This document shows, piece after piece, positions 29,854 to 49,238 of a stretch of 64,000 nucleotides of DNA. Below the pieces are notes generated by a model. The model was not told the DNA's origin and made no database searches. It saw only the letters and a program-made list of their open reading frames with translations. The position numbers were made by a program, and so were the translations under genes. Each line of letters opens with the position of its first letter. The stretch's first letter is position 1. Origin of the DNA: Pachyseris speciosa (lineage: Eukaryota > Cnidaria > Anthozoa > Scleractinia > Pachyseridae); assembly GCA_016490735.1 (NCBI GenBank), contig JAEMWC010000986.1, positions 30,001-94,000 of the forward strand. The letters are read 5' to 3'.

Positions 29854-30321
29854 AGTAGTATAGTACATGGGTGATCTAGCACATGTTCCATAAAATTGCG
29901 CAATTTTTCAAAACAGCACACTTTTTCCCAAGGTCAAGGTCAAATTTTCCAAATCTATAATTAGCGTTTTCTCCCAGAATATTTCAATATTTTAGACATC
30001 AGGATGATGAATGAAAGAATTGAGTAGTATTCGTCGAGAAACGGCTGATTTCAATATTCTAAGCGGAATGAGCATATTTGAGTAGTATTCGTCGAGAAAC
30101 GGCTAATTTCAACATTCTAAGCGATAATTAGTATATATGAGCAGTATTCAGGTAGAACGGCATTTTTCCCATTTTCCAAGGTCAACTATTTAAGTACTTT
30201 ATGATATAAAAAACACTTAAAGACATATCGCTATAAGTCAAATGGAGAATGACGAAAGAAAGAAATCTCCGGGCCTTGGAAAAGCCCTCTCAAATCAGGT
30301 CAGGTAGCCAGATGGTAAATG
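29854..30321. repeat. Left terminal inverted repeat (468 bp)
   Basis: Starts AGTAGTATAGTACATGGG and matches the reverse complement of 48765-49232. The only differences I see are three substitutions near 30232-30240. The inner 73 bp are the start of the polymerase coding region. Confidence 0.95.
30022..30160. repeat. Subterminal tandem repeat inside the TIR (58-59 bp period)
   Basis: GAGTAGTATTCGTCGAGAAA begins at 30022 and 30080, with a third, shorter degenerate start (GAGCAGTATTC) at 30139. The same array lies inverted in the right TIR (about 48926-49064). The GAGTAGTAT core resembles the element tip AGTAGTATAG, as expected of binding sites for integrase or replication protein. Confidence 0.85.
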
Positions 30322-33300
30322 GCCTGAGTCAGAAAAATATTGGATCAGGTAGCCAGATGGTAAATGATCCGAGTCAAAAAATTATATATTCTAATAGTAT
30401 AGACATGGAAAATAGAAATAGTATTTTCAAAGAATTATTGAAAAGATTAGGCCGTATGGATGTTGGCGAGATGAGGCGATTAGTTAGTCTCGCTGATAAC
30501 ATCAAAAAGCAGAAGCCAATTCCAGCACCTCGCAAGAGTGTGAAGCAGATGGTTAAAGATTATGAAGACAACATAATTCTTCCACCACCACAATTTAGAG
30601 ATAGACCAGTACCAGCACCAAGAACTAAAAAACCAGCCCCAATACCAGAACCAAGGACTAAGATAGAGCAAACAGATAAAGCTCTCAAAGGATACACCAA
30701 ATCATTTCAAATAGATATCAAAAATTACAAAGACCCGCTATTACAACTGCAAAACACAAGAAAGGCTGTAGCGTACCGTCTTGTAAGTTTACTAAAATCA
30801 ATGAAAGGACTGAAATTCGTTGAAACACTAAAGGTAACATTCAGAAAAATGTCTGATGGTGAAATAATACATAAAACAGCCTTTTTCAACAGTCCACCTC
30901 AAACAATTATAAATAATCTCCAGATCAGTGAATCACTTCAAGCGTCAAAACAAAATATATTAAATAAGATTGCAGTTTGGATTTCAGAAGGATCTGGCTG
31001 GGTTGTGGAATCAGTCGACAAGCATTTTCTAAATGTTGTAATATATCAGCCAATGAAAGGCTCATCATATATTAAACTACCCCCAGAATTAATGAATGCA
31101 ATGAAGGGATTGATTAACATAAAGAATGATGACAATGAATGTTTCAGATGGTGTCATATCAGGCACTTGAATCCACAAGAGAAGAACCCTCAGAGAATAA
31201 AAAAATCTGATAGACAACATATTAATACGTTAGATTATTCGGGGGTTGAATTTCCAATCACAAATAAACAGTATAACAAGATAGAAAAACAAAATGAGAT
31301 CAACATCAATGTATTTGGTTATGAAAACAAACAACCATATCCAATTTACGTTTCAAAAGAAAAGTATGAAGACTGTTTGAATCTTCTATTGATTACAGAA
31401 AATGAAAACAAACACTACGTTTTAATCAAAGATTTCAACAGATTCATGCGCAACAAAACAAAGCACAATGAAAGAAAACACTTTTGCATGCACTGTCTAC
31501 AATGTTTCAGCTCAGAAAGAGTCTTGAATGATCATGTGGACAACTGCATACTGGTTAATGGCACACAAGCAATAAAGATGCCAAACAAAGACAATAATAC
31601 TCTGAAATTCATCAACTTCCATAAACAACAGCAAGTGCCATTCGTCATATATGCTGATTTTGAGGCTATAACTGAGAAAATACACGGTTGTCAACCCAAC
31701 AATGATAAATCATACACTGAAGCCTATCAGAAGCATACTGATTGTGGATATGGTTACAAGGTTGTTTGTTGTTATGATGATAAATACAGCAAGCCAATAC
31801 AAATATACAGGGGTGAAAAGGCTGTATACAAATTCATGGAAGCTATGTTAGAGGAAGTTAAATATTGTAAGAAGATTGTAAAAGAATTCAACAAACCATT
31901 GAAAATGACTGAGGATGATGAAGAGAAATTCCAAAAAGCCAAAGAATGTCACATTTGTGATAAAAAATACACTGAAAAGGATATTAGAGTACGAGATCAC
32001 TGTCACATTACTGGCCAGTATAGAGGATCAGCTCATCAAGAATGTAACCTGAAACTTAGAGTCAATCCAGAAGAAGTGAAGATACCTGTTATATTTCACA
32101 ATCTAAGAGGTTATGACAGTCATTTTATTATGCAGGAGATTGGAGCTATTGTCAAGAAACACACATTCAAAAATAAAAAAGGTGAAGTTTGCCAAATGAA
32201 CATCAATGCTATCCCAAATAACATGGAGAAGTATATGGCTTTCATGCTTGGCAATCACCTAACATTTCTTGATAGTTTCCAGTTCATGAGCTCTAGTTTG
32301 GAAAAACTTGTAGGCAATCTACCAAAAGAAGCCTTAAAATACACCTCACAAGAGTTTAAGGGAAAAGATCTTAATCTGATAGCACAGAAAGGTGTTTATC
32401 CATACGACTACATGGACAGTTTCAATAAATTCAATCAGAAGTTACCCTCAAAAGAAGAATTCTATAGCATACTGAGTGATACGCATATATCAGATGAAGA
32501 CTATACACATGCTCAGACAGTGTGGGAAACATTCTCTTTGAAAAACATGGGTGAGTATCATGATCTGTACCTTAAAACAGATGTACTCCTGTTGGCTGAT
32601 GTATTTGAGAACTTCAGAAGAACATGTCTCGAGTACTACAAACTGGATCCGTGTCACTATTTCACATCTCCTGGTTTATCATGGGATGCAATGTTAAAGA
32701 TGACTGATATCAAACTGGAATTGATGACTGACATTGATATGTTCCAGTTCATTGAAAAGGGTATGAGAGGTGGTATCAGCTATATTGCAAATCGTTACGG
32801 TAAAGCTAATAATAAATACATGAAGAAGTATGATGAGAAGGCGCCCTCAAAGTACATTATGTATCTTGATGCTAATAATCTATACGGTTGGGCAATGAGT
32901 CAATACCTTCCAACAGGCGGATTCAGATGGATGACTGAGAATAAAATAAATAATCTCAACCTGGCTAAATACAAAGAAGACAGCAATAAGGGTTTGATTC
33001 TGGAAGTTGATCTGGAATACCCCCAGGAGTTGCATGATCTGCATAATGATTACCCGCTTGGACCAGAGAAGGTGAAAGTAACTGGAGACATGCTTTCAGA
33101 TTACTGTAAAGACATAGCAGAGAAATACAATATATCGACTGGTTTGGTACATAAACTGATGCCAACATTAAGCAACAAAGAGAAGTATGTTCTGCATTAC
33201 AGGAACCTCCAATTATACACAGACTTAGGTTTAAAGGTAACAAAAATCCACAGAGTGCTAGAGTTCAAACAATCACCTTGGCTGAGACAGTACATTGATT

Positions 33301-34136
33301 TCAATACACAGAAAAGAACTAATGCCAAGAATGCTTTTGAGAAAGATTTCTTCAAGTTGATGAATAACTCAGTATTCGGCAAAACTATGGAAAATCTCAG
33401 AAAGAGAGTAGATGTCAGATTGGTGACTGATGAGAAGAAGCTATTGAAATTAGCCAGTAAACCAACTTATGTTAGCAGTAAGATATTCAATGAAAATCTG
33501 GTAGCAGTGCATAAGATCAAAGAAACACTAACTCTAAACAGGCCGGCATATGTAGGAATGTGTATTCTTGATCTCAGTAAGACACTTATGTATGATTTCC
33601 ATTACAACTACATTAAACAAAAGTACGGTAATAAGGCTAAGCTGCTCTTCACTGACACGGACAGTTTGACATATGAAATTGAAGCTGAAGATGTCTACAG
33701 GGATTTCTGGAATGATAAAGATAAATTCGATAACAGTGACTATCCTGAAAGCTCGCCATTCTCCGATAAGACCAATAAGAAAGTGATTGGTAAGATGAAA
33801 GATGAGGCTGCTGGAGTCCCAATATGTGAATTCGTAGGGCTGAGATCAAAGATGTATAGCTATATTAAAGATGATCAGAAAGGAGGAAAAACAGCAAAAG
33901 GAATCAAAAAGAACACAATCAAAAATGAAATCAAGCATGAAAATTATAAAGACACTCTATTCAATGACAAACAAATGTATCATAAAATGAAAACAATCAG
34001 AAGTGAAAACCATCAATTAGGAAGCTATAAAATCAACAAAGTATCACTCAGCTGCTTCGATGACAAAAGATATTTATCAAAAGACGGAATCAACAGTTAT
34101 GCTTATGGCCATCACAAAATAAATAGCCAGGAATAA
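30249..34136 (+). CDS. polB: Protein-primed family B DNA polymerase (pPolB), 1295 aa
   Basis: Replicates the linear element genome, with a terminal protein as primer by family analogy. Order of features: TIR-encoded N-terminus; a 15-residue duplication around residue 20-50; proline-rich PIPAPRK/PVPAPR motifs (90-137); a C2H2-like finger CMHCLQCFSSERVLNDH (about 411); exonuclease I box YADFEA (about 468); a treble-clef/HNH-like insertion with C-x2-C and RDHCHITGQYRG-x-H-x2-C-N (567-595); exo II FHNLRGYDSHF (616); exo III YLKTDVLLLADVF (about 770); palm motif A YLDANNLYGW (872), B NNSVFGKTMEN (1036), C FTDTDS (1132) and a SKMYSY box. All catalytic residues are present and the frame is unbroken. 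The initiation codon lies inside the left TIR; an out-of-frame ATG precedes it by 7 bp. Confidence 0.95.
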   Translation: MTKERNLRALEKPSQIRSGSQMVNGLSQKNIGSGSQMVNDPSQKIIYSNSIDMENRNSIFKELLKRLGRMDVGEMRRLVSLADNIKKQKPIPAPRKSVKQMVKDYEDNIILPPPQFRDRPVPAPRTKKPAPIPEPRTKIEQTDKALKGYTKSFQIDIKNYKDPLLQLQNTRKAVAYRLVSLLKSMKGLKFVETLKVTFRKMSDGEIIHKTAFFNSPPQTIINNLQISESLQASKQNILNKIAVWISEGSGWVVESVDKHFLNVVIYQPMKGSSYIKLPPELMNAMKGLINIKNDDNECFRWCHIRHLNPQEKNPQRIKKSDRQHINTLDYSGVEFPITNKQYNKIEKQNEININVFGYENKQPYPIYVSKEKYEDCLNLLLITENENKHYVLIKDFNRFMRNKTKHNERKHFCMHCLQCFSSERVLNDHVDNCILVNGTQAIKMPNKDNNTLKFINFHKQQQVPFVIYADFEAITEKIHGCQPNNDKSYTEAYQKHTDCGYGYKVVCCYDDKYSKPIQIYRGEKAVYKFMEAMLEEVKYCKKIVKEFNKPLKMTEDDEEKFQKAKECHICDKKYTEKDIRVRDHCHITGQYRGSAHQECNLKLRVNPEEVKIPVIFHNLRGYDSHFIMQEIGAIVKKHTFKNKKGEVCQMNINAIPNNMEKYMAFMLGNHLTFLDSFQFMSSSLEKLVGNLPKEALKYTSQEFKGKDLNLIAQKGVYPYDYMDSFNKFNQKLPSKEEFYSILSDTHISDEDYTHAQTVWETFSLKNMGEYHDLYLKTDVLLLADVFENFRRTCLEYYKLDPCHYFTSPGLSWDAMLKMTDIKLELMTDIDMFQFIEKGMRGGISYIANRYGKANNKYMKKYDEKAPSKYIMYLDANNLYGWAMSQYLPTGGFRWMTENKINNLNLAKYKEDSNKGLILEVDLEYPQELHDLHNDYPLGPEKVKVTGDMLSDYCKDIAEKYNISTGLVHKLMPTLSNKEKYVLHYRNLQLYTDLGLKVTKIHRVLEFKQSPWLRQYIDFNTQKRTNAKNAFEKDFFKLMNNSVFGKTMENLRKRVDVRLVTDEKKLLKLASKPTYVSSKIFNENLVAVHKIKETLTLNRPAYVGMCILDLSKTLMYDFHYNYIKQKYGNKAKLLFTDTDSLTYEIEAEDVYRDFWNDKDKFDNSDYPESSPFSDKTNKKVIGKMKDEAAGVPICEFVGLRSKMYSYIKDDQKGGKTAKGIKKNTIKNEIKHENYKDTLFNDKQMYHKMKTIRSENHQLGSYKINKVSLSCFDDKRYLSKDGINSYAYGHHKINSQE

Positions 34137-34210
34137 AAATATTCTTGGCTACCAAAATAGCAAATACAGTATAATACTGACCTCTATCACATATATAGGT
34201 TAGATAAAAG

Positions 34211-34993
34211 TTAGTCTTTTCTTATACGTGATAAATACAATTTGCTTTCTTCCATGTGTTTGGTTATTTCAAAAATTAAATCTTCAAAACAATTGCTCAT
34301 AATGTATTTGCACTTGTTTTTCTCATACATTTGCTTCATACTTTTTTGTTTATCAGTCACTTGGTATACACCAGTGGGACTTTTGAATTCAAGACATAGA
34401 GCATTGTATTCTTTTGTTGGATTCATTAACATTAAATCACATTGTCCGGACATATATCCTTTGTTGTAACTTTTGATTCTCATGTTTGAGCTTATTTGAT
34501 TCTCACCTAAGCCGGCTATCATTAATGCGTCTTCATATTTCTTTCTGATGAATGAAACAATCTTGCAGTGTAAATCATTTTCATTTTCAATCAATAGCAT
34601 GTTATTGTTTCTGTCATTGAACTGTTTTTGATATATTCGTTTTCTGACTAATGGTAAGACCTTTTTAGTAACCCAATGTTTAATTTCTTTGGCTTCTTGT
34701 TTTTTGGATGAGAATAAAAGTGAATGAAATCCTGTTTCATTTATAAAAAAACATTTGAAAGTTTTTTCGATTGCATCAGCGAAAATTGACTTTGTTTTGG
34801 AATTTATGGACAGTTTGAAGTCCAATAAGATTTTATCTTCAGAATCAACATGATCTCTGATTGCTCTTTGCGGATTTTTATAGTTGAGAATAATGGCTAT
34901 GTCTCTTCCTCTGAACCATATTTCGTTTTTATCATCGAGATAACAATCTATTGAAACGTCTAATTCTTTATTATCGTAGGAATATTTTTGCAT
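34211..34993 (-). CDS. BRO-N domain fused to VRR-NUC-like nuclease
   Basis: Residues 1-118 form a BRO-N/Bro-like DNA-binding domain (FRGRDIAIILNYKNPQRAI, then ETGFHSLLFSSKKQEA and VTKKVLPLVRK) as in baculovirus BRO proteins and phage antirepressors. Residues 135-250 form a PD-(D/E)xK nuclease of VRR-NUC type: GQCDLML (D186), LEFKSPTG (E202, K204) and Q216. The pairing suggests a DNA-targeted endonuclease for replication, recombination or resolution. It ends tail-to-tail with the polymerase and starts just after the integrase. ATCTAACA lies about 11 bp upstream of the ATG. The old element has no counterpart between its integrase and polymerase. Confidence 0.8.
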   Translation of the reverse strand: MQKYSYDNKELDVSIDCYLDDKNEIWFRGRDIAIILNYKNPQRAIRDHVDSEDKILLDFKLSINSKTKSIFADAIEKTFKCFFINETGFHSLLFSSKKQEAKEIKHWVTKKVLPLVRKRIYQKQFNDRNNNMLLIENENDLHCKIVSFIRKKYEDALMIAGLGENQISSNMRIKSYNKGYMSGQCDLMLMNPTKEYNALCLEFKSPTGVYQVTDKQKSMKQMYEKNKCKYIMSNCFEDLIFEITKHMEESKLYLSRIRKD

Positions 34994-35004
34994 CTACATG
35001 TATG

Positions 35005-35990
35005 TTAGATAATTTTCTTTAAATCCTTGAACGGTATCCAACTGTTAAAGTCATCACTATATCCCTTCCACTTCACCAAAGCTTGTTTCTTCTTGTAATC
35101 TCTGCGAATGACTTTATCAATACGGAATACATCCTGTTTAGCCTTTAATAACTCAGGTTCATAAAAACTCCCTTCAATTTCTTCATCGTTGTGATCTTTT
35201 AGTTTGTATGTTATTGGATTAGTGTATTGGATTTTATCAACTGTAAACACTTCTTCAGTCCAATTTGGTGTATAGCCCTTGTCGAACACAATCCGTTTAT
35301 ACTTGGATATTCGGACCTTATCACCTATTTTAAATTTTAGTTTCTGTTTTAATGGCTCCATATCACCATAAAGATTGAAGTAAACAGTTCCTTCATTCCT
35401 CTTATCAGATGCTTCAACGGGTGTCATCTTTGTGCTTGAATGTTTTGTGTTGTTATACTGTTTCACTAATTTTTGTAACATGTCTAAATACTGTGTATTG
35501 CCTTGAACAGTGAACTGCTTCCACATTTTGGATTTAATTGTCCTATTCCATCTTTCAACTACTGATGATTTCTCTTCATTCTCAGTTGAGTACATCTGTA
35601 CACTATGTTTCTCTAGCAAGTCCTTCAAGTGTTTGTTGTAAAACTCTTTTCCCTTGTCGACCCATAAATACTGTGGTTTTCTGCCTTCCTTGAATATTGT
35701 TTTGAATGCTTCAGTGACAGATTCACCTTTCTTATCCTTCAATGGGACAATCCAACCATATTTGCTGAAGACATCAATAACCATAAGAAGATATCGATAA
35801 CCTTTATTCCATTTACTAAACTGTTGCATTTCAACTAGATCACTTGCCCATATTTCATCAATTTTATTTACAATCACACGCCGCCGAGTGAAATTTCGTT
35901 TTATGGGTGCATGTAATTCATCAGCTAGTTTTTCTTGCCAGTTTTCTTCACTCGACGGCTTTTTCCGTTTTTTGAAACACCAAGACCAAG
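35005..35990 (-). CDS. Polinton integrase (DDE) with chromodomain
   Basis: Inserts the element DNA into the genome. Numbered from the codon at 35877, the rve core has D13 (ASDLVEM), D74 (WVDKGKEF) and E108 (SSVVERWN), a D-x33-E spacing. An SH3-like segment follows, then a C-terminal chromodomain with RRDYKKKQALVKWKGY and SWIP (about 250-290), which may steer insertion to particular chromatin. The frame stays open upstream to about 35990 with the family-typical LADELHAPIKRNF and TRRRV, overlapping the PLA2 gene end in another frame, but has no ATG there; the start is therefore uncertain. It follows PLA2 on the same strand. Confidence 0.9.
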
Positions 35991-36561
35991 TTTCTGTTTT
36001 TTGTCAATTAAGAATCTAGCTGTTTGACCCCATTTTGGCATCTCACCATATGGTATTTGATCTAGTGACTCGACCATTGTTCTATCACATTCACCTTTTT
36101 TTTTTCATATCATAACAAATATCATGATAAGCTGCTATTTCATCCACTTTATTGTAAGGTTGTACATTCCATTTCAAGACCTCGCCAGTATTTGGATCAT
36201 ATTCCAACTGCTCATGCAATGGATTGTATGGTCCCATATATTTATATTTACTTGGTGTCCAACCACTTTTCGGTTTAGGAAGCTTGCCAATAACCTTATG
36301 AATGTCAATAGCACCGCCATAATCTAATCCTTTGATATCTGTTTTGTAACGAATATTTGGTCTCACTTTTGTTGAGAGTTGTTTCAAAGCTTCTGACCCA
36401 ACCTTTGTGATTGCAGGTTTTGCGAGGGAAAGTCCTTTGTCAATTAATTTCTTTTGCAGCTTTGGATTTCTCATTGCTTCAGAAGCATAATATCTTCCCA
36501 TTTCTACACCTTTCTTTGCTAAATAAGGGACTCCATGTTCTAAGAATCCTGTTAGCGCCAT
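35945..36561 (-). CDS. PLA2-like capsid-associated protein, one frameshift
   Basis: Parvovirus VP1-type phospholipase A2 domain. N-terminal helical part, then STKVRPNI, KVIGKLPKPK, the Ca-loop-like MGPYNPL and the catalytic-type dyad in AAYHDICYD. The frame hits a stop just after, at a run of ten T (36099-36108 region; A run on the coding strand). The next frame continues with a conserved-looking tail ending near 35945 (compare the old copy's GLGV tail), so a one-base indel has split the gene. Such domains breach membranes during virus entry in parvoviruses; the same role here is inference. Confidence 0.85.
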
Positions 36562-36601
36562 ATCTGCGGCTGAATCTAGTATGCCCGCCCCTTCAGACGG
36601 G

Positions 36602-36912
36602 CTAATTAGTTTCCCCGATTTCTGACAAATTTAGTTTTGTGATTCCACATTCAGCACAAGTACATTTCATCACAGTTCGACCATTTTTAGTCTTCTGATA
36701 TCTTTCACTTCCTGGTACACATTCAGTGACTTTCTTCTGTTTCACACAATATGATCTCATATATATTAAGTTGGATAAAATAGCTTTCCACAATTTATCA
36801 CCTGCTCTTTTTTCAATCTGATATTAATTATTTTATCAATTTCATTAGCTTTCTTGATCTTCTTTCTTTGTCTAGTAGTTAAATCGACATACATTTCCAC
36901 TAAGTTTGTCAT
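36602..36912 (-). CDS. Small zinc-ribbon protein (DUF5679-like), one frameshift
   Basis: A first frame from an ATG at 36912 (MTNLVEMYVDLTTRQRKK) leads into a second that holds SNLIYMRSYCVKQKKV, RYQKTKNGR and a C-x-C-x2-C-G-I-T-K knuckle. The two join at a run of six T at 36808-36813, where one base added or lost would fuse them. The Cys pattern and the KNGR turn match small proteins seen in many Polintons. The old element has the same gene in the same place (17211-17340). Role unknown; nucleic-acid or protein binding through zinc is likely. Confidence 0.65.
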
Positions 36913-37023: not shown

Positions 37024-37302
37024 TCATACTTTTATGTTAGATAGAAATTTATTAAATCTTTCATCATCAAATAATATTGTTAATATCATAGTACCTTTCT
37101 GACGTTCTAAAAGGTAGTACAAACACCATTGTTTACTCAATAACGGATCTCTAATACACATTGTTTCATTGAAACAATTCTTTTCCTCCATTTGAGTAGG
37201 TATCTCCTGTCCTGATGGATCAAAGTATTCTTTCTCATTATAGCACGCGTAATATTTGCCGACTTTTATTATCCCACTGTTTTTGTTTAACTTAACAGAC
37301 AT
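37024..37302 (-). CDS. Tandem protease-like paralogue lacking catalytic residues
   Basis: This 92-residue protein is a diverged copy of the C-terminal half of the protease directly upstream (37312). Shared blocks: KEYFDPSG against CEYFDSFG, and QWCLYYLLERQKGT against YWCLYYLLERQKGT. The catalytic His position (GTHW in the protease) reads VGKYY here, and the nucleophile region VLCGYWC reads LLSKQWC, so both His and Cys are replaced while the Asp is kept. It starts 10 bp downstream of the protease stop. It may be a regulatory or structural pseudoprotease, or a decaying duplicate. Confidence 0.75.
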   Translation of the reverse strand: MSVKLNKNSGIIKVGKYYACYNEKEYFDPSGQEIPTQMEEKNCFNETMCIRDPLLSKQWCLYYLLERQKGTMILTILFDDERFNKFLSNIKV

Positions 37303-37311
37303 ACATATACA

Positions 37312-37845
37312 TTACATATTTTTGAAATAATTGATTATGAATCTATGATTGACTCTTGTGTCTGTGGGATTGAATTTTGCATTATGAATGACTTTCAATA
37401 TGGGGGTCCCTTTCTGTCTTTCCAATAAATAGTACAAACACCAATATCCACATAATACTGATTCCCTTTCTTGTATCTCATCACCAGAGTATTCAAGTTG
37501 TTTACCGCTTGCAGCCATGTATTTCTGTACTTCTGTTGGCATCATTAAACCGAAAGAGTCGAAGTATTCACAGTATTTATCATTTTTGAAATTCCTATAA
37601 CAAACCCAGTGAGTACCAGGTCCAATTTTGGAATCAAGATTGACTATCCCACATTCATTCTTTTTTATTTGTCTCGGATTGTCTCTTGAAAATACTCCTC
37701 TAAAATGTTTTATTCCAAGTTGTTTAACCCAATTGATTAAATCAAAGTTGGATAAGGGTTTATTTACAAAATGGTTCCTAGTATGGGGATTGAATTGAAT
37801 GGACTGTTTTTGCCTAGTAGAAGTCCTTTTCCTTTGTTTTTTTTT
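37312..37845 (-). CDS. Adenain-like (Ulp1/C5 family) cysteine protease
   Basis: Matures capsid precursors in adenovirus-like elements. The open frame runs from about 37845 and shows PLSNFDLINWVKQLGIKHF, GVFSRDN, catalytic His in GPGTHWVCY (about 37612), Asp in EYFDSFG (about 37560), Gln region GDEIQERES and nucleophile Cys in VLCGYWCLYYL (about 37450). No ATG precedes PLSNF; the frame opens directly after the end of the PX gene at a run of ten A on the coding strand, so the real start depends on an indel or slippage there. The old copy starts at an ATG four codons before its PLSN. Confidence 0.85.
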   Translation of the reverse strand, partial: KKKQRKRTSTRQKQSIQFNPHTRNHFVNKPLSNFDLINWVKQLGIKHFRGVFSRDNPRQIKKNECGIVNLDSKIGPGTHWVCYRNFKNDKYCEYFDSFGLMMPTEVQKYMAASGKQLEYSGDEIQERESVLCGYWCLYYLLERQKGTPILKVIHNAKFNPTDTRVNHRFIINYFKNM

Positions 37846-38612
37846 TCATTCCATAACCGATTGGGTTATTCCATGTACCAAAAACAGGAGGAGATTGCCA
37901 TGGAATCATAGCATGTTTCCCACCTTTCTTTCTGGGTACAATTATCTGGAACATGAACAGGTATTGACCGTCTTGGACGGCTGCTTTCAACATGCAAACC
38001 TTTTCCAGTTAATTTTCTGATTGCTTCTATAGCCAAAGGAATTCCAATGCTGGCGAGTATTGTTCCAATACCCTTTCCAGTCTGCGCTTTTGTTGGTTTT
38101 ATAACAACGTCTCCACCATACTGCATTTTTTGGATAACATCAGCCATCTGTCTCGTATTCAATAAATTTCCTACATTAAATAATTGGGATAAATTGGCAT
38201 TAGGAATAAGAAATCCTCCTTTTTGTTTCTTTCCAAATAGTTTATCAATGCCGAGACTTGCTAATGAAGAAAGAGCACCTGTAGCCAATGCTGGAGCCGC
38301 TTTAGCTACTGCTTTACCTGCATAAGGCAATAGTCTTGTTCCAAGTGAAAAAAGACTGGACCAAAGAGAACCTCCTTCTTGGACTGATTTTCTGATCTGT
38401 GCTTTGGATATCTTTACATCAGCACCTGTTCCATTTCTCTGTGATTTGGCTAATTTTTTTATCTGTGTTTTTGTCAACATCATTTGATCACCTCCAGTGA
38501 GATCTCCATGTGCGAGTCTCAATGTTACCGGTGAATTTGTTTGTATAGCTTTTGCAAGCCTTTGCTTCTGACTGTTTGAAAGTCTTACTCCATGAGGATG
38601 ATAAGTAGTCAT
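37830..38612 (-). CDS. PX-like basic virion protein
   Basis: The 248-residue frame begins MTTYHPHGVRLSNSQKQRLA, has TKTQIKKLAKSQRNGTGADV (young form of a block shared with the old copy), an alanine-rich hydrophobic segment (SLFSLGTRLLPYAGKAVAKA), KQKGGFLIPNANL and many basic residues. It resembles the pX/core-protein family of adenovirus-like elements, which condense or stabilise the packaged DNA. Near 37950 the conserved C-terminal part (PPVFGTWNNPIGYG) is in a different frame from the rest, so a one-base indel shifts the last 40 or so residues. Confidence 0.75.
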
Positions 38613-38636
38613 ATAATATATGTTTATACTAAATTG

Positions 38637-38740
38637 TATTTAGTATAAAACAATCAATTTATTTAATTATTAATTTATTTAATTATTTATTTAATTATTT
38701 AATTCATTTAATTATTTATTTAATTTATTTAATTTACATA
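38637..38740. repeat. AT-rich simple tandem repeat (TTTAATTA units)
   Basis: Reiterated TTTAATTA/TTTAATTT between the PX and MCP genes. It could serve as a terminator/promoter spacer on the minus strand. Confidence 0.8.
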
Positions 38741-40019: not shown

Positions 40020-40030
40020 ATATTATTGTG

Positions 40031-40267
40031 TTAGATAAAAGTTATTTTACGCGGTCGGCCTCTCTTTCTTTTGATTAAACCACCAGTCTGGCTCGCACTC
40101 TCAGTTCCACTCTTTCTCTTTTTCAAAAGTTCTATGATTTTGTCGCCAGCTTTTTTGCCAGCATGTTCACCAATTGTTGTTGCTGCTTTTTTTCCAGCTG
40201 TTTTGATCATATCAGTCACAATACCTTCACCATGTTGTTCATATTTTTTAAACTCAAACCGTTTCAT
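40031..40267 (-). CDS. Small basic AT-hook protein
   Basis: A 78-residue lysine-rich protein with an amphipathic alanine/glycine middle (KTAGKKAATTIGEHAGKKAG) and a C-terminal AT-hook, KRKRGRPRK. It probably binds the packaged AT-rich DNA. It lies between MCP and penton genes, and the old element has a small basic protein in the same slot. CCTAATAG precedes the ATG by about 6 bp. Confidence 0.75.
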   Translation of the reverse strand: MKRFEFKKYEQHGEGIVTDMIKTAGKKAATTIGEHAGKKAGDKIIELLKKRKSGTESASQTGGLIKRKRGRPRKITFI

Positions 40268-40280
40268 ATACTATTAGGTT

Positions 40281-41066
40281 TTATAATTCTGTCTCTCTCA
40301 AGAACAACTCAATATACCAATCTATCCCATTTAAATCGACTGGAGCTCTAGAAGAGTCTGTGACATAAAAGCGTATTGAGCTGATATTATGTGTTGAGAC
40401 TGGATTCCATGAAAGAAAACGAGGTTTGTAAGTGAAAGGTAAACTTCTAACGAGATCTGTGACAGGAATAACAGCGATTGTATTTGTGCTATTTCCATCA
40501 ACAATGCTATCTGTCACCAAATCACAATTGATATAAATTTCATCTACTCCTCTTGTAATATCAGGTAGATTTGTTCCATATTCTGTGGCTGGAACTAATT
40601 TTGAATCGAAACCGATAAGTTTTCTGAAATCAAGATTCCTCAGATCCACACGATAATTTTCATTGAGTTCAATCAAAATGCGATATGTTGACAAAACGAA
40701 ATACATGTTAATACCATACAGGAATTTTGATTTGTCTGTTTCAGATGGATTCAGTACATGGCTGTTTTTTCTCATATACTCATGAATGTAACTATTGATA
40801 TCGTCGTATGAATACATCCCGTTAACGAATGTTATTGTTTCCCAGTTTACACCTTTGTCATAGCTGTATTTCATTTGATTATTCCCAAAAATATCTCTGA
40901 TATTGTACCAACTGTATGTCATATTGATGACATTCACAGCCATTTCATATTTTAAATCATTCGTTAATTTAAGAGGTGAATTAAATCTTTTTTCAAAATC
41001 ATGACTCTTGCTGACACCAATTTTGTCTCTGTTTTTACTGTTGAATCGTAATGAAATTTCTGTCAT
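40281..41066 (-). CDS. Minor capsid (penton-like) protein
   Basis: A 261-residue intact protein with SKSHDFEKRFNSPLKL near the N-terminus, MTYSWYNIRDIFGNNQ, RKLIGFDSKLVP in the middle, INCDLVTDSIVDG and a C-terminal DWYIELFLRE. By size, all-beta composition and position between MCP and coiled-coil genes it fits the single jelly-roll penton protein that fills capsid vertices. Every block is matched in the old copy. TATCTAATG is 11 bp upstream. Confidence 0.8.
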   Translation of the reverse strand: MTEISLRFNSKNRDKIGVSKSHDFEKRFNSPLKLTNDLKYEMAVNVINMTYSWYNIRDIFGNNQMKYSYDKGVNWETITFVNGMYSYDDINSYIHEYMRKNSHVLNPSETDKSKFLYGINMYFVLSTYRILIELNENYRVDLRNLDFRKLIGFDSKLVPATEYGTNLPDITRGVDEIYINCDLVTDSIVDGNSTNTIAVIPVTDLVRSLPFTYKPRFLSWNPVSTHNISSIRFYVTDSSRAPVDLNGIDWYIELFLRETEL

Positions 41067-41160
41067 ATACTTTTACATTAGATATTTCATCATTATTTTA
41101 TTCAACTCACCGGTTTTCAGGATTCCCAGTCTGTTCAATGTATGCAATATTTTTGTGAAT

Positions 41161-41877
41161 TCATTTCTTACACATGCTGTTGTTGCCGGCTGAAATAGAT
41201 CCACCAAGCAACTGTAGTCTTGAAAGCATGTCACCCAAAAATGCATCCCTTGAACCCATTCCTTTCCCTGTTTTGTATTTGTAAGAAGCTAATACATCAT
41301 CAATCGTATCTCTATATTTCTTCAAAGTTTGTATTTCTCTTTTATGAGATTCATTTTCTTCTGGAGTGAATGATTTTTTTTTTCTTCTTCCCATATTCTG
41401 GGCTATTTCTTTAGCTTTTTTCTTTTCCTCGACAAGTTTTTGTGGGGTGACTTGAGTTAATTCGGATGGTTTCAAAAGATTGTGATTTCTTAATATGATT
41501 CTATCATCTCTATCGAAATAGTTATCGATCGATAATATGTTGGGTGTCTGATCCTCTTTTTCAGGTGCTTCAATGGCTCCAGGAAGTTCCGTTCCCATTG
41601 TAATAGCTCTTCTATTAGCTTCAATAACATCATCAAGTCCTTGTGTTAAAGCCTGTTGATTCTTTTTCAACTGTTTAATGACTTCATCCTGTTTTTCGTC
41701 GACACTTTCTTTCACACTCTTCTGGACATCAATAGAGGGTTTCAGCAATTCTGATGTTGTATCATATGCATCCTGTTTTCTGTATTCATAAGTCTTGATA
41801 ACATCACGAACTTCTCTTGTTTTGTTTCCAGCTTCAATTCCACTTTTAAGAAGCCTTTTCATTCGTTCTATATCCAT
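41161..41877 (-). CDS. Coiled-coil virion/assembly protein
   Basis: About 238 residues from the ATG at 41877. The first 110 are heptad-rich and charged (ESVDEKQDEVIKQLKKNQQA, DDVIEANRRAI), followed by an acidic linker, a second helical segment with GRRKKKSFTPEENESHKR and a glycine-rich C-terminus (LQLLGGSISAGNN). The gene is divergent from the packaging ATPase with only 36 bp between the two ATGs, suggesting a shared promoter. The same arrangement exists in the old element. Function not established in sequence; a scaffold or vertex role is inference. Confidence 0.7.
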   Translation of the reverse strand: MDIERMKRLLKSGIEAGNKTREVRDVIKTYEYRKQDAYDTTSELLKPSIDVQKSVKESVDEKQDEVIKQLKKNQQALTQGLDDVIEANRRAITMGTELPGAIEAPEKEDQTPNILSIDNYFDRDDRIILRNHNLLKPSELTQVTPQKLVEEKKKAKEIAQNMGRRKKKSFTPEENESHKREIQTLKKYRDTIDDVLASYKYKTGKGMGSRDAFLGDMLSRLQLLGGSISAGNNSMCKK

Positions 41878-41913
41878 ATACAATTGTGTTAGACTAATCT
41901 AAACTATTTACAT
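41878..41913. promoter_or_regulatory. Divergent promoter between coiled-coil and ATPase genes
   Basis: The 36 bp spacer contains GTCTAACACAATTG towards the coiled-coil start (minus) and AATCTAAACTATTTA towards the ATPase start (plus). Both contain TCTAA 10-17 bp before the ATG, the motif seen before most late genes of this element. Confidence 0.6.
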
Positions 41914-42552
41914 ATGGAAATCCCTAATTATGATATTCAGGGTTTAAAGAATTCATTCAGACAGTTGTATCCGTATATGCCAAAAGACACTTTCAGGATG
42001 CTGCTGGCTGGTAATTCTGGATCTGGAAAGACAACATTGTTCATGCATCTGATTATGGAACCATTGGTTTATTATGATCAGATACATCTTTATGCAAAAA
42101 ATTTGGATCAAGACAAATATCAATATCTTCGGAAAGTAATGGATGAAATAAGCAGTCACATTGGATATCCTGCCTTGGTTTGCAGTCAAGAAGAGATATT
42201 GCCAGTTGAACAAATAAAAGACACAGATTTGCAGCGATTGGTTGTTTTTGATGATTTCGTGACTGATAAAAAACAAGATCAAATCATAAGCTATTTCATT
42301 CAAGGGAGACACAAGAACTGTTCAGTCATATATCTCACACAATCATTCTATGGATGCCCAAAATCAATCAGACTCAATTGCAGTCACTTCTGCCTTTATG
42401 ATTTCCCATCCTCAAGAGAAAGGAACTTGATTGCACAGGAGCTTGGAATCGACAAGAAGAAATACATTGAAGCAACCAAAAAACCATATTCCTTCTGTTA
42501 TGTTGACAAGCCGATGAAAACAATCAAGAGAAATTTTTATGGTGCTGTTTAA
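41914..42552 (+). CDS. FtsK/HerA-type genome packaging ATPase
   Basis: A 212-residue intact enzyme. Walker A GNSGSGKTT at residues 33-41, Walker B LVVFDDF (D113, D114), a sensor region SVIYLTQSFYG and the C-terminal LGIDKKKYIEATKK. This is the A32/FtsK-HerA superfamily motor that translocates DNA into capsids in Polintons, virophages and large DNA viruses. It starts the plus-strand half of the element and is followed by the fibre genes. Confidence 0.93.
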   Translation: MEIPNYDIQGLKNSFRQLYPYMPKDTFRMLLAGNSGSGKTTLFMHLIMEPLVYYDQIHLYAKNLDQDKYQYLRKVMDEISSHIGYPALVCSQEEILPVEQIKDTDLQRLVVFDDFVTDKKQDQIISYFIQGRHKNCSVIYLTQSFYGCPKSIRLNCSHFCLYDFPSSRERNLIAQELGIDKKKYIEATKKPYSFCYVDKPMKTIKRNFYGAV

Positions 42553-42568
42553 TCTAATCTAATATTAT

Positions 42569-42643: not shown

Positions 42644-42655
42644 CAAGATGATATA

Positions 42656-45600
42656 ATGGGAGTTTTTAATGCTCAAATAAATCAAGATAAAACAGAAACT
42701 GGTACTGGTGAAAGAGGCCCAGCTGGTCCAATTGGTCCCAAAGGTGAAAAAGGTGATAGAGGTCCAAAAGGTAATACAGGTGCAATTGGTCCACAAGGAG
42801 CTACTGGAGCTGTTGGTCCCAAAGGTGATGGATTTAGATTAACACAAGATGGTAATTATGACATTGAAAATAAACGTTTGACATATGTTGGTGATCCAGT
42901 AAATCATTATGATTCTGCTAACTTGGGATATGTTAATGATGCTGTTTTATCAATTGAAGGAACACGTGTTAATCCATTTAAATTTCTTCTTGAAGATATA
43001 TCAAAAACAACTATTCTTAGAAATGCAAATAATCTGCAATTTGAAGACTATGATAAAAGCCCTTACTCAATAAATAAAAAAGCCTTGTCTTTTGTTATCC
43101 ACTGCTGGTCTTACAACTGTTCTTCGTTTTGATCTGACACAATTGGAAGTTTCAAAGTACACTTTAGTTGTTGAGTTTTATACTGATGGTAGCCCAAACA
43201 ATGCAACAGTCGATGACGACAATCTGTCATCAAATTTAATTGAAAGAAAGGATTCAATAAAAAGAGCATTTCCAAAGACTCATCTTGTTGATGGTTATCT
43301 TAAGAGAATATTCTTCCTTGAAAAAACAAGTCATGGTTCCACATCAATGGAGTTATTGTTGATTTCACCATATTTACAAAATAATAAAAAACATTATGTT
43401 ATAGTTTATGGTGTTTACGGATTTTCAAATATTATTTTATCACATATTCACGATCCTGTTTTTGAAATTGAAAATGGTAATGTTGCATTCGATGGTAAAA
43501 TTGACATGAAATTAAACAAAATCATCAACCTGCAGGATAACCCCTCAAACCCACAAGACGCTGTAAACAAATCTTACGTTGATAATAAAACAGCTGATTT
43601 CCTTAATATAAACACTGGTGGTGTAATTTATGCACCTGTCAGCATGAATAGAAATGATCTATTTGGCATACCAGATAACCCAAGATTTGGTTATTCAGCT
43701 GTAAATAGAAACTATGTGAACAATAATTTTTTGAAACTAAATGGAAGCGTTGCGATGACTTCTGATTTGAATCTTGGAGGTAACAAATTGACTAATGTAT
43801 CAACACCAACTGCAAACAATGATACAGCCACAAAGGGGTATGTTGATACTGAAATTGCTGGAATTACTGGCATTGATGTTTCACCATTTCTTAAAAAAGA
43901 TGGAAGTGTTGCAATGACTGGTGATCTTGACATGGGTGACAATAAAATAACAAATGTTGAGACTCCAAACTCTGATAAAGATTCTGCCAACAAAAAGTAT
44001 GTTGATGACCTTATTTTATCAGCATCTGGTACTCAACGCAACCCATTCGCTTTTCTGTTAAAAGACAAATCCAAGTCTTCTGTAGTCAGTGGTGCGGAAA
44101 ACCTTCAAATTGAGAATTTTGACAGATCACCTTATCACATAAACAAGTCGTCATTGTCTTTTATCATTTCACATAGTGGTAACTTTACATCCAAAATTCG
44201 TTTTAATGTGACATCTTTGAGAAACAGTCAGTACACTTTTGTTGTTGAGTTTTACTCACCATCAGACCCAAGAAGTGCAACAGTCGATTTAACCCTTCCA
44301 ACTGTAAATATACGAGATGCGGGACAGCCGTTTCAAAAACCTTTTCTCAAAACACCACACGTTGATGGTTACATGAAAAAACTTTTCCGAATCGAAAAAA
44401 CCAGTGGTGGTCAAGCGGCAATACAGGTGGAACTTTCCAGCACAGCTCCTGCGTCTAACACCAAAACACATATCATCGTTTATGGGGCCTATGGCTTTCA
44501 TACCAACTTGTCTTACTTTGTCCATGACCCAGCGTATGAAATTGAAAACGGCCATGTTGCATTTGGTAGTAATGTTGACATGAAATTGAACAAAATCCTC
44601 AACCTGCAGGATAACCCCTCAAACCCACAAGATGCTGTAAACAAAAAATATGTTGATGCTGAAATTGCTGGTATTGATGTTTCTCAATTTCTTAAAAAAG
44701 ATGGAAGTGTTATAATGACCGGCAATCAGGATTTTGGGGGGTTTATTATTAGAGGTCATGGGATAGGAAACCAACCAGCAGATCTTGTGAATAAATCGTA
44801 TATTGACACTAATCTCGCATCAAAAAGCAGTATCGGTCAAACTCTACTTCGAGATGGAACACAAGAAATGACTGCTAATTTAAATCTGGCTGGTAACAAA
44901 GTGATCAACTGTGCAACACCAACTGCTAACACGGATGCTGCCAACAAAAGATATGTTGACCAGGCCCCTTTTCTTAAACTTGTCGGAGGTCAAATGGCTG
45001 GTGATATTGACATGGGTGATAACACACTCGCAAACTTAAAAGAAGGAACAAATAAAACCGATGCCGTAAATTTAGATCAATTAGAAAAAAGTCATATTTC
45101 ATCTGCTTCTCATCCAAAGAATGCTTTCAAATATTTGATGAATGATATTAATGAAATTAGCACTGAATATGGCTTGACAGTTAATGGATATGTCAATTTA
45201 CCTCGCTCACCACATTTGATTTTAAAAAAGGTCATTGATATAGACTTGAATAAAGAAGCTAATCATATTTACAGAGCTAGAATTGGATTTAATATGTACA
45301 CAATAAATGATGGAAAATACACTTTCATTCTTGAATGGCTATTTCCTGATTATGAAGGAATGAGTCTTAGTAGTGTAACATTCAGTGCAACTGGTGGAAT
45401 TACAATTCATAAAACTGTAGGGAGAAAATTTGATAACAGAAATGAAGATCATTCGAGATATTTATTATGGATTGAAAAACCATCAGCAAGTTCACCACCT
45501 GAATATTTATATTGTACTATTCATATTAATGCTAATCCAACTTATCCAAATAAGTACAAAGTTCATTGTGTTGCATATGGTATTGATTTTGAAGCTGTAG

Positions 45601-46265
45601 ACGTTCCATCAAGTGTTTACGACTTCGCTGAAGCTTATAAAATTGTGAATGAAAAACTACAATTACAAACTGATTTAGATTTGAACGGACATGCTTTGAT
45701 TGATAATTCATCAAACTTATTCGATGGTCAAAACGGTGAATTGACAATGCTAAATAATATTAATATGAACACATATTTGATAAAAGAGGCTAAACTTGGT
45801 GGTAATTTAAATATGAATGGACATAATATTTACAATGGAAATGATCTGTTATTTGAAATTACCTCAAATCAAATAAAAGTTCCACGCCCTTTAATTTTAT
45901 CAGGGTTAGTTTATAAAATAGTAAGTTCTTTGTTAACCGGCTCTTCCGCATCAGAGGATGTTTTTTCTATGCCAACGCTTTGGGCTCCATATACACCGTT
46001 TTTTAAAGAATTGATTCGCACCGATTTACATTTTTATGACCGCACTTCCATGCCACAAAATGGTTCTTTTCGTGTTTATGTCACTGTTGGAGGAAAAGAA
46101 CAACGGCTTACATCTCACAATATTTCCAAAGGGGAAACTGGGTGGGTAGTTTTGTCAAGCATTAGGACACACTTGTATTTTCCAACAGCTACTGCATTAA
46201 CGTTTAAAATTACCGGACTTAACCAGAGAACAAGAGTAACGCTTACTGCTGAGTTTCTTGCATAA
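42656..46265 (+). CDS. Collagen-stalked fibre protein with phage tail-type repeats, one frameshift
   Basis: Likely spike for host attachment. The N-terminus MGVFN is followed by about 13 collagen G-x-y triplets (ERGPAGPIGPKGEKG and on). Next is a 115-residue module containing NPFKFLLEDISK and SPYSINKKALSF, repeated later around residues 460-560. Then come many stalk repeats of the type LKKDGSVAMTGDLDMGDNKI and DAVNKKYVD, as in phage tail fibres, and a C-terminal beta-rich domain (DFNGHALIDN-like and final LTAEFLA). Frames 42656-43132 and 43092-46265 join through a one-base indel near 43100. TAATCTAACA precedes the ATG. The old fibre shares the QAPFLxLxGGQMAGDIDM stretch. Confidence 0.85.
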
Positions 46266-46346
46266 AATTTTATTTTTGGAAATATGATGGGGGAGGATGT
46301 TGACCATAATCCATTCACACTTAAATTAATCTAAAATAATATTATA

Positions 46347-47279
46347 ATGGGAGTATTCAATCAAGATAATACAAGAACTGGTGAAAGAGGTCCAAAAGGT
46401 GATAATGGCAATGGATTTACATTAACACAAGATGGGCATTTTGATATTGGAGGAAATAAAATAACAAATGTTAATGAAGGAACATCGGATGATGATTGTG
46501 TAACAAAAAAACAACTAGATTTGAAGTTAGATAGAGCAACTTTTGTTATTTCAAATTCACTGCCTGGTATACCTGTTCTTGATGGAATTTCAATTGCTTT
46601 GATACCAGCTCTGTCTGTAGTGACAACTGATGCTGATGATAGAGTTTCTAGTTGGCTGGATCCTGTTAATAATGTCACTTTTACACAAACTTCTAATTCG
46701 AAAAAACCATTGTTACTGAGAGATTCAGTCAAGAAAAAGTTTTTCATACGTTTTGATGGCAGTGATGACTACTTGGAGAACAGTTCATTTGATGTTTCTA
46801 AAGTTGCTGGACGGAGTGGAAATACTTGTACTGTTATAATCATTGCAAACACAAAACAAATAAAATGTCAATCACAATTTCAATGGGGTGAGGGTGCTGT
46901 TAGATTTGGTGTTCATCTGCCTTGGATTAATGGAGCATGTTATATTGATTTCGGTTCTACATTAAATGGAAGACTTGCTGTTTCTTCTTTGGCTGATCTG
47001 ACGGGAAATATTGAAGTTTTTACTGTTCGAGTTGATGGTCATAATATGGAATTTTTCAGAGGTATTTCATCAATGACACCAGTTGGAACAGGATCAATTT
47101 CAGCAACATTGACTGGTAGTGCACAAGAAATGTTTATTGGTTGTCAAGTTCATACAGATGGTTCTGCAATTAATTTTTGTGAAATGGATCTTTATGCTTT
47201 TGCTGTTTGGCAGAAATCACTAACTAACCAAGAACTGAGAAATATGTATCGTTTTCTTGAAGATTATTTCGATCTTTGA
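46347..47279 (+). CDS. Short collagen fibre with LamG/lectin-like head
   Basis: Begins MGVFNQDNTRTGERGPKGDN, the same opening as the large fibre, then one FTLTQDGHFDIGGNKITNV stalk repeat and a 220-residue C-terminal beta-sandwich with VSSWLDPVNNVTF, FIRFDGSDDYLENSSF and LYAFAVWQKSLTNQELRNMY. That succession (strand with FDG, then a final W-x-x-x-L-T-x-x-E-x-x helix) is the concanavalin A-like/laminin G lectin fold. It is probably an alternative or additional glycan-binding spike. TTAATCTAAAATAATA precedes the ATG. Confidence 0.8.
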   Translation: MGVFNQDNTRTGERGPKGDNGNGFTLTQDGHFDIGGNKITNVNEGTSDDDCVTKKQLDLKLDRATFVISNSLPGIPVLDGISIALIPALSVVTTDADDRVSSWLDPVNNVTFTQTSNSKKPLLLRDSVKKKFFIRFDGSDDYLENSSFDVSKVAGRSGNTCTVIIIANTKQIKCQSQFQWGEGAVRFGVHLPWINGACYIDFGSTLNGRLAVSSLADLTGNIEVFTVRVDGHNMEFFRGISSMTPVGTGSISATLTGSAQEMFIGCQVHTDGSAINFCEMDLYAFAVWQKSLTNQELRNMYRFLEDYFDL

Positions 47280-47297
47280 ATTATGTAATCAATTATT

Positions 47298-47775
47298 ATG
47301 AAGCAGATTATAAGATTTGTACGATGGTTCATTCGGGATGCTGAACGGAAAAACCCTGGTGTTGATAAGAGGATTTTGAAATCAGCTTTGGTTTACCAGT
47401 TTCTATATCACAAACATTTCAACAAATATATTGAAGTGAGAGATATTATCCAGGAGCATATAGGCATTGGATTAATCGGTCCCGGTGAAGGCTGCTTAAC
47501 ACATTTTTTGGAGCATACTCTTGGTTGGATTGACGTGTTACAAACGCATGCAATATTACACGATGCTTTCGGCAGATTCTATGTCAAACATGGTCTTGAT
47601 AGAGGATATTCTTATGCTTTTCCATGTTTCTTATCGACTAAATTAAGTAAGTTATCTCCTCTGAGTGGCCAGATCTCTGGAATACTTTATTGCATATTCA
47701 AGAGAATCATTATGTAAAAGATATATATGAAAGAGCGAAAAAGCATATTCAGCTGGAACCATATTTCAGGTGAAT
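47298..47775 (+). CDS. Small late protein, unrecognised
   Basis: A 139-residue frame (47298-47717) with a basic N-terminus (IIRFVRWFIRDAERKNPG), EVRDIIQEHIGIGLIGPGEG and GYSYAFPCF. An open, protein-like continuation (LHIQENHYVKDIYERAKKH) exists in another frame to about 47775, overlapping the next gene start, so the C-terminus may be shifted by an indel near 47675. I cannot assign a function. It lies between the lectin fibre and the hydrophobic-core protein. Confidence 0.55.
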
Positions 47776-48212
47776 TAACAGAAGATCAGGTAAATGAATT
47801 AAAATCCTATTACCAAACATATCACAGAAAGTGTTGGGCTCATAAACAGGCGGTTAAACGGTTCAAAAAATGGAAATTACTTGGGAACTCATTGTCCATC
47901 ATCTTTGCAACTGGGGGTCTTGCCGCAAGTATTTCGACTGGTGGTGTTAGTTTAGTTGCCATCAGTACGGTATCACTTTTAATACAAGGTTGGATGAAAC
48001 ACAAGAACCTTGACATGAAAATACAGAATTGTACATATGCTTATCAAAGCTACCAGCATCTTCTCAATACAATAAAAGAAACCATGAGAAGCGGTAATTT
48101 TGATAATTCCAGCATACACAATACAATGAAGAACATAGACGATTATGTTGTTGATAATAGTCCAATTATTGATAAGTACCTACTGAAATATGATGAAAAA
48201 TTCACTGTTTGA
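47727..48212 (+). CDS. Small late protein with hydrophobic core
   Basis: 161 residues. Helical N-terminal part (LKSYYQTYHRKCWAHKQAVK), a glycine/alanine/serine-rich hydrophobic segment at about 50-92 (FATGGLAASISTGGVSLVAI), then a polar helical tail. The layout resembles pore- or membrane-active helical proteins of the apolipoprotein L kind only in general form. The old element has a homologue at 28531-29051. A membrane role in entry or egress is inference. It overlaps the convergent VLTF3-like gene by 11 bp. Confidence 0.65.
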   Translation: MKERKSIFSWNHISGELTEDQVNELKSYYQTYHRKCWAHKQAVKRFKKWKLLGNSLSIIFATGGLAASISTGGVSLVAISTVSLLIQGWMKHKNLDMKIQNCTYAYQSYQHLLNTIKETMRSGNFDNSSIHNTMKNIDDYVVDNSPIIDKYLLKYDEKFTV

Positions 48213-48837
48213 TAATACGAATAATCTTACCAAATATTAACAATAGAATCTCAACCCAATATTGATTATAAAATTTCAGTGTTTTCTTTGAGTTGGTTAA
48301 TATGATATACTCATAAGGCAGATCCATCATCATAAACAATTGTTTCAGAATGAATTTGGTGTTTATCATTCTTTTACGATTCTTATTCACCGAAGGGATG
48401 ATAGTGTCTATCTCCTTGAATATTCTTAATATTTTACCCTTATCTTTTACTGAAATTTGAAATCTATTCTTGCAACATATACCATTTATCACATTTTCAA
48501 TATGGTACTTCCGATGATATATAGATTTCCGCTTTATTTTATACATATTATTATGAAAGTCAACGTACTCCTTACAATAATCATAACCATAGACTGAACC
48601 ACAATTTGTACAAACATTTTCACCATTGTCATTAATCATTTTCTGATTATCACAACATGGTTCATTTTTGACACTATGTTCTGCTATCTTCTGATCACAT
48701 AAAGGACATATTAGATATTTTTCTACTTCAACAAAATATTCGTGAATATCTGGATTACAAAAATCATTTACCATCTGGCTACCTGACCTGATTTGAGAGG
48801 GCTTTTCCAAGGCCCGGAGATTTCTTTCTTTCGTCAT
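48202..48837 (-). CDS. VLTF3-like late transcription factor
   Basis: 211 residues with two zinc knuckles (C44-P-L-C47 and C76-T-N-C79, plus CC61-62) and the family-typical basic block KRKSIYHRKYHIENVI at about 103-117. This combination matches the poxvirus VLTF-3/A2-like family present in many nucleocytoplasmic DNA viruses and some Polintons, where it activates late genes. The first 24 residues are encoded in the right TIR and are identical to the polymerase N-terminus. It reads inward from the TIR. Confidence 0.8.
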   Translation of the reverse strand: MTKERNLRALEKPSQIRSGSQMVNDFCNPDIHEYFVEVEKYLICPLCDQKIAEHSVKNEPCCDNQKMINDNGENVCTNCGSVYGYDYCKEYVDFHNNMYKIKRKSIYHRKYHIENVINGICCKNRFQISVKDKGKILRIFKEIDTIIPSVNKNRKRMINTKFILKQLFMMMDLPYEYIILTNSKKTLKFYNQYWVEILLLIFGKIIRIIKQ

Positions 48838-49232
48838 TCTCCATTTAACCTAAAGCGATATGTCTTTAAGTGTTTTTTATATCATAAAGTACTTAAATAG
48901 TTGACCTTGGAAAATGGGAAAAATGCCGTTCTACCTGAATACTGCTCATATATACTAATTATCGCTTAGAATGTTGAAATTAGCCGTTTCTCGACGAATA
49001 CTACTCAAATATGCTCATTCCGCTTAGAATATTGAAATCAGCCGTTTCTCGACGAATACTACTCAATTCTTTCATTCATCATCCTGATGTCTAAAATATT
49101 GAAATATTCTGGGAGAAAACGCTAATTATAGATTTGGAAAATTTGACCTTGACCTTGGGAAAAAGTGTGCTGTTTTGAAAAATTGCGCAATTTTATGGAA
49201 CATGTGCTAGATCACCCATGTACTATACTACT
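48765..49232. repeat. Right terminal inverted repeat (468 bp)
   Basis: Reverse complement of the left TIR, ending CCCATGTACTATACTACT. Includes the inverted subterminal repeats and the first 73 bp of the VLTF3-like coding region. Confidence 0.95.
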
Positions 49233-49238
49233 GGACTT
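49233..49238. repeat. Target site duplication, right (GGACTT)
   Basis: Identical to 29848-29853. Confidence 0.9.

Follow-up and report, generated by a model that had tools for sequence, protein, structure and literature searches.

A probably virion-type Polinton, recently inserted in the stony coral Pachyseris speciosa, and its large family of copies

Structure of the element and its insertion site

We analysed a 64,000-bp window from the genome assembly of the stony coral Pachyseris speciosa (983.67 Mb in 2368 contigs; the window is C986:30001-94000), of which positions 29854-49232 are a complete Polinton/Maverick of about 19 kb. The original prediction, made from the sequence alone, had described terminal inverted repeats (TIRs) of 468 bp with about three differences and a GGACTT duplication. 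Both were recovered: the TIRs at 29854-30321 and 48765-49232 differ by exactly three mismatches, and GGACTT, a target-site duplication of the 6 bp usual for Polintons/Mavericks, is present on both flanks. The TIR tip is AGTAGT, in agreement with the AG- or AGT-repeat tip of long Polinton/Maverick TIRs noted in the available part of a survey of vertebrate Mavericks (PMC8097293). The family B polymerase (PolB) and VLTF3-like genes each start within a TIR, so that their first 24 residues are identical, and the three mismatches are clustered within seven bases directly ahead of the two starts. The features are as follows (position in the window, strand, description with E-values in brackets).

29848..29853, target-site duplication, left (GGACTT)
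29854..30321, +, left TIR, tip AGTAGT; includes PolB start and a 58-bp internal repeat
30249..34136, +, PolB, 1295 amino acids (aa); Exo I-III, palm A-C, EndoVII/HNH insert (PF02945, 2.1e-5), C2H2 finger, OTU-like Cys motif
34211..34993, -, BRO-N (3.7e-22) and weak VRR-NUC (0.0032, below cutoff)
35005..36003, -, rve integrase (3.1e-10) with C-terminal chromodomain (1.7e-7); frame without ATG upstream of the core
35928..36630, -, PLA2-like domain gene (PF08398, 2.3e-7), its frame disrupted in this copy
36605..36823, -, small Cys-rich open reading frame (ORF)
37027..37311, -, diverged partial protease duplicate (34-38% identical)
37315..37845, -, adenain-like cysteine protease (Peptidase_C5, 0.0016, below cutoff)
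37869..38639, -, hydrophobic capsid-core protein (pX-like); C-terminal frame differs from most other copies read
38737..40022, -, major capsid protein (MCP)
40034..40270, -, small basic protein
40284..41072, -, penton-like minor capsid protein, so named from gene order and recall
41164..41898, -, coiled protein, a two-allele block
41914..42552, +, A32-like packaging ATPase (PF04665, 1.1e-16; Walker A)
42656..46265, +, fibre 1: collagen leader, phage-fibre-like stalk and, starting near 45864, a head at the C-terminus; in this copy the frame of the leader is not that of the stalk
46347..47279, +, fibre 2: collagen-like leader and concanavalin-like lectin head
47298..47717, +, conserved ORF
47727..48212, +, SLATT-like two-helix membrane protein (SLATT_1, 3.8e-4; SLATT_4, 6e-5; both below cutoff)
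48202..48837, -, VLTF3-like transcription factor (PF04947, 7.8e-6); first 24 residues are those of PolB, encoded in the TIR
48765..49232, -, right TIR
49233..49238, target-site duplication, right (GGACTT)

About 20 genes in two strand blocks had been predicted; we list 18, in the order given, and they form four blocks: PolB on the plus strand, BRO to the ORF at 41164 on the minus strand, the ATPase to the SLATT-like gene on the plus strand and the VLTF3-like gene on the minus strand. The predicted unbroken polymerase of 1,295 codons is indeed stop-free and carries, in one frame, motifs located by regular expression which we take to be Exo I-III and palm A, B and C. These make it a family-B polymerase as in Polintons/Mavericks, with protein priming predicted, and Pfam DNA_pol_B_2 gave no match to the 1,295-aa protein at E 0.1. 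The only OTU-like feature of PolB is the Cys motif at residue 295. The integrase is of the retrovirus type typical of Polintons/Mavericks and joins the rve core to a C-terminal chromodomain. Adintoviruses are defined by this arrangement, a PolB with an N-terminal OTU-like domain and a hexon that BLASTp can match to reference adintoviruses (PMC11071296). HW, D and C motifs were found in the adenain-like protease ORF, whose Peptidase_C5 match is weak, and the packaging ATPase is of the A32/FtsK type seen in Polintons/Mavericks (Pox_A32, 1.1e-16). The predicted structure of the MCP homologue P0003 is a double jelly roll (predicted local distance difference test, pLDDT, 73.8; predicted template modelling score, pTM, 0.79). 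The names pX-like for the capsid-core protein and penton-like for the ORF at 40284-41072 are our assumptions, the former from recall and the latter from position and recall. There are 2,019 proteins similar to the MCP (best 77% identical) and 445 to the SLATT-like protein (best 81%). For the latter 13 of 25 scanned members match SLATT, under the curated cutoff, and its identity is tentative on this profile evidence.

Judged by its flanks, the element inserted cleanly into a palindromic repeat at least about 320 bp long (29717-29853 and 49239-49425), which has 2071 first-look candidates in the genome and at least 40 paralogues about 93% identical over 318-322 bp. The original prediction had suggested a search for empty GGACTT sites. 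Target copies free of the insert exist: the joined flanks continue through the junction in all 40 scored repeat matches (about 93% identical), these being paralogues and not an allelic empty site. The palindromic flanks were also considered as part of the element and rejected, as they belong to a separate repeat with at least 40 uninterrupted paralogues. Within the TIR, two adjacent AGGTCA half-sites (TIR positions 78 and 84, at 29931-29942) are mirrored in the right TIR, and additional ones lie at TIR positions 326 and 444; the adjacent pair presumably resembles a nuclear-receptor site.

A large family of copies

The notion of a single relic was rejected, since many further copies are present in the genome. 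For the TIR query, 40 of 375 candidates were scored and contained 49 matches, an MCP piece was at least 88% identical in every one of 128 scored of 4191 candidates, and a 60-aa piece was 93-100% identical in 150 scored of 2424. Merging yielded at least 212 MCP loci on 196 contigs, of which 103 keep the full frame (420-445 aa, about 428 aa). When five queries were pooled and matches within 22 kb joined (MCP, fibre, capsid-core and TIR), at least 282 sites on 254 contigs had a matched part, where one site may hold a partial element; as only the best candidates were scored, more sites exist.

Ten other full-length copies were chosen by TIR similarity and paired from the TIR match list. Together with the window, eleven TIR pairs bound elements of 19.0-19.7 kb. 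A 6-bp duplication, different each time, flanks ten of the eleven (eight found by script, those of C529 and C220 by reading one base beyond the BLAST edge), and C353 has only 4 bp. The integrated form thus has TIRs and 6-bp duplications, and their recurrence in other copies excludes chance for the element. The TIR pairs are 96.6-100% identical, five of them differing by 0, 0, 1, 1 and 2 bases. On C94, two MCP loci lie 17 kb apart on opposite strands (near 1489555 and 1506684), in neighbouring or nested elements.

The recency of the insertion, also predicted, was supported, but not by the TIRs: the window's TIR differences are inherited alleles and not mutations acquired after insertion. All three recur in C787 and, by eye, in C610, and two of the three in C32, C139 and C353. 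TIR divergence was therefore rejected as a clock, and the near-identical blocks are the better guide to age. In these blocks (5,500 coding sites in each of ten copies) the private changes are 118 substitutions and 12 one-base indels, or about 0.2% per copy.

Mosaic copies and selection on the genes

Identity to the window, taken in 300-bp steps, ranges from 100% to 71% in combinations that vary among copies. All four combinations occur in 23 of 36 pairs of nine blocks, which requires recombination or repeated conversion. By this block pattern, the copies are recombinants that combine near-identical with two-allele blocks in a mosaic. The most uniform block, 37944-38642 (699 bp) in the capsid-core gene, has one substituted site in the ten copies picked by TIR, indels not counted, and its neighbours are variable (dS, the synonymous divergence, is 0.22 in the protease and 0.12-0.18 in the MCP gene). 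Furthermore, when the best 40 of 1600 candidates were scored, 666 bp of it proved 100% identical in every one; these 40 do not include the window's own locus, so that ties were cut and at least 40 copies, not necessarily all, are identical. C86, C269 and C554 share the identical 666 bp although their adjacent MCPs are only 91-92% identical to that of the window. A recent sweep or a constraint at the nucleotide level could each account for this near-invariance.

The ten copies were compared with the window over 51,165 codons after trimming. The differences comprise 2,649 nonsynonymous changes, 3,226 synonymous changes and a single stop, and the pooled ratio of nonsynonymous to synonymous divergence (dN/dS) is 0.195. 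For the MCP and fibre genes dN/dS is 0.21-0.33 at synonymous divergence of 0.12-0.36, stop-free after trimming. Single-site counts in the untrimmed variable blocks gave 9 stops among 501 private changes, 13 among 926 shared ones and one in the window, which is below the neutral expectation of 4.4%. On these codon counts, the family's genes for replication, integration and the capsid are mostly kept by purifying selection. In cyprinid Mavericks all core genes were found to be under strong purifying selection, which was interpreted as virion-mediated spread in the part of that study available (PMC8097293). Following its logic as far as given there, constraint on capsid genes would indicate virion-mediated spread, within the limits of dN/dS comparisons.

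Fibre heads

Different copies carry different heads on the two fibre genes, and their alignments suggest that heads were exchanged between copies. Fibre 1 matches the window to the last residue in only 8 of 43 scored loci, the other 35 diverging at about residue 895-938; 36 of the 43 are stop-free within the best match, with open frames of 981-1297 aa. Eight of the ten fetched copies have another fibre 1 head, 86.5-99.5% alike among themselves, and in C32 and C353 the gene breaks ahead of the head, so its type is unassignable. The lectin head of fibre 2 exists as two alleles about 70-81% identical, one in the window, C32, C145 and C529, the other in C139, C23, C610, C220 and C787. C353 and C993 have the common collagen leader and no match to the others past about residue 150; the gene is in pieces in C139, C145, C529 and C787. 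Sixteen relatives with the fibre 2 head were found in the protein collection, mostly on other N-termini and in one case behind an ATPase-like start.

Among phage families, fibre 1 matches those for head decoration (PHROG, 2.6e-26) and tail fibre (3.6e-23), and its head had no PDB sequence match at E 1. In the model of fibre 2, the head is a concanavalin-like lectin (block pLDDT 72-91 from residue 91, below 50 for residues 1-82); its fold matches to toxin binding domains, sialidases and pilins were taken only as the common concanavalin-like fold.

Interpretation

In our view the element is probably a recent insertion, one member of a large family of virion-type Polintons endogenous to a stony coral. 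Functional parents would replicate as linear DNA, protein-primed from the TIRs, and the A32-like ATPase would package this DNA into a double jelly-roll capsid, which the protease would mature. The two fibres would mediate attachment to cells, their heads being swapped by recombination between co-replicating variants, and the chromodomain integrase would re-insert the element; the present copy, in which four genes are broken, probably derives from such a functional parent and is itself dead or dependent on a helper. The family looks virus-like in its evolution and the element young and well preserved, and the data suggest, from sequence, recent spread via a virus-like parent. Of the original prediction of a Polinton with recent, mobile and virion-forming potential, the identity, the recency and the mobile family are supported, whereas virion formation is something we only infer. 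A bolder version, a recent and possibly circulating virion-forming DNA virus of corals with mass entry into the germ line, co-infecting and recombining variants, a capsid-core sweep and phage-like head exchange, we put forward as a possible but tentative scenario.

Several observations weigh against the virion-type reading. Four genes of this copy are frame-broken (PLA2, capsid-core, MCP and the first fibre), and all ten further copies read have at least one broken gene. The selection counts use the window as reference throughout, so that comparisons are not independent, stretches of low identity (below 60% locally) were trimmed, and the copies were picked by TIR similarity. The single-stop result depends on this trimming, as the untrimmed alignments contain, where identity is low, several stops resembling frame drift, for example in the integrase and penton genes of C145 and the fibre of C23. 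Constraint is weak or absent in the VLTF3-like gene and the protease fragment (dN/dS 0.49 and 0.81), and the capsid-core gene, with no synonymous change, has too few changes for a ratio. In the near-identical blocks, the nonsynonymous-to-synonymous ratio of private changes exceeds that of shared ones (1.11 vs 0.52), thus some decay after insertion is likely. Finally, an exact-word scan, which reaches close relatives only, found no MCP relative among viral contigs.

This last result, together with the many loci in one genome and the near-identical blocks, would suit a purely intragenomic DNA transposon that synthesizes itself in germ cells without virions and whose capsid genes persist only through the recent burst. 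We regard this as improbable, because the constraint on MCP and fibre genes at their synonymous divergence, free of stops after trimming, is older than the burst, and the exchange of fibre heads also speaks against it. That the family is dead, amplified once, with this and other copies decaying as relics, would fit the broken genes here and in each of the ten others; it is very improbable given the full frame in 103 of 212 MCP loci, the open fibre frames and the TIR pairs with at most two differences.

The original prediction had left room for the frameshifts being assembly errors, which was not established. Errors in the assembly, which we take to be built from long reads, could explain why stops are rare while indels are common and why the breaks are at different places in different copies; this copy would then be intact. 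In the near-identical blocks, however, the ratio of 12 private one-base indels to 118 private substitutions is an ordinary biological one. Homopolymers of at least four bases, 9.2% of the element, hold 25 of 190 coding and 33 of 66 non-coding one-base indels (tallies that count the window's own indels up to ten times), so no strong homopolymer signature of sequencing error was found in coding DNA. In addition, uniform error would not make one-base indels rarer in coding than in non-coding DNA (1.2 vs 4.6 per kb). Thus an intact copy is somewhat unlikely; this copy is probably not functional and may be truly broken while the family is not.

Comparison with known systems

Polintons have been described before, as have modular fibres and the Maverick loads of corals. 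According to the available part of the vertebrate survey (PMC8097293), Mavericks share with the coral element the (AGT)2 ends, 6-bp duplications, pPolB, rve integrase, protease, ATPase, capsid genes, purifying selection and degraded copies alongside better ones. The coral element adds two head-exchanging fibre-like genes and BRO/VRR, SLATT-like and VLTF3-like genes, none of them seen in that part; its at least 282 sites are within the range of, not beyond, the highest vertebrate total there, 287. Mavericks make up 5.20%, 6.74% and 1.41% of three coral genomes in the accessible text of another report, which gives RepeatMasker totals only (PMC12005156), and a high load is accordingly not new here. 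The Stylophora coral adintovirus, compared by its description in part of the source (PMC11071308), is likewise a coral Polinton and has an OTU-PolB, a domain that the Cys motif may indicate in the present element; its terminal protein is a separate gene, whereas the 1,295-aa PolB of the present element looks fused from the long N-terminus ahead of the OTU-like motif. Cryptophyte Polinton-like viruses, in the portion available (PMC12220804), also have modular fibres with collagen, laminin-G-like and phage-tail repeats and, in some, an rve integrase with 6-bp duplications; these are protist elements, and that portion does not mention near-identical copies exchanging heads. A thin search of part of the literature, by titles and abstract starts, did not find such exchange in animal Polintons. 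Cnidarian MCPs lie outside the main metazoan Maverick and adintovirus cluster, as stated in the part of PMC10120064 available, and the coral family may thus belong to a less studied Polinton branch.

Whether animal Polintons form particles is a long-standing question. With hundreds of closely related loci, whole capsid frames in many of them, measurable constraint on capsid, packaging and fibre genes and swapped heads, it becomes testable in an accessible reef animal, and the family is a candidate native DNA virus of corals.

Neighbouring sequence in the window

Left of the element, at 16320-28767, lies an older, decayed Polinton. Its pieces of the PLA2, protease, capsid-core, MCP, penton, ATPase, fibre stalk and SLATT-like genes follow one another as in the young element, and each matched piece is 23-58% identical to it. 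At the expected position of its VLTF3-like gene, 29226-29648, is a zinc-ribbon-like ORF, weak and below cutoffs. Right of the insertion, on the plus strand, a weak rve integrase ORF (8.5e-5, below cutoff) and a DNA_pol_B_2 fragment (1.2e-6), at 49490-50074 and 51588-52469, are probably a further Polinton remnant. Five tRNA-like matches in inverted and tandem repeats at 9171-12578 are likely tRNA-derived repeats, and a reverse transcriptase fragment and a GIY-YIG ORF, at 8352-8963 and 57594-58079, are probably retroelement remnants.

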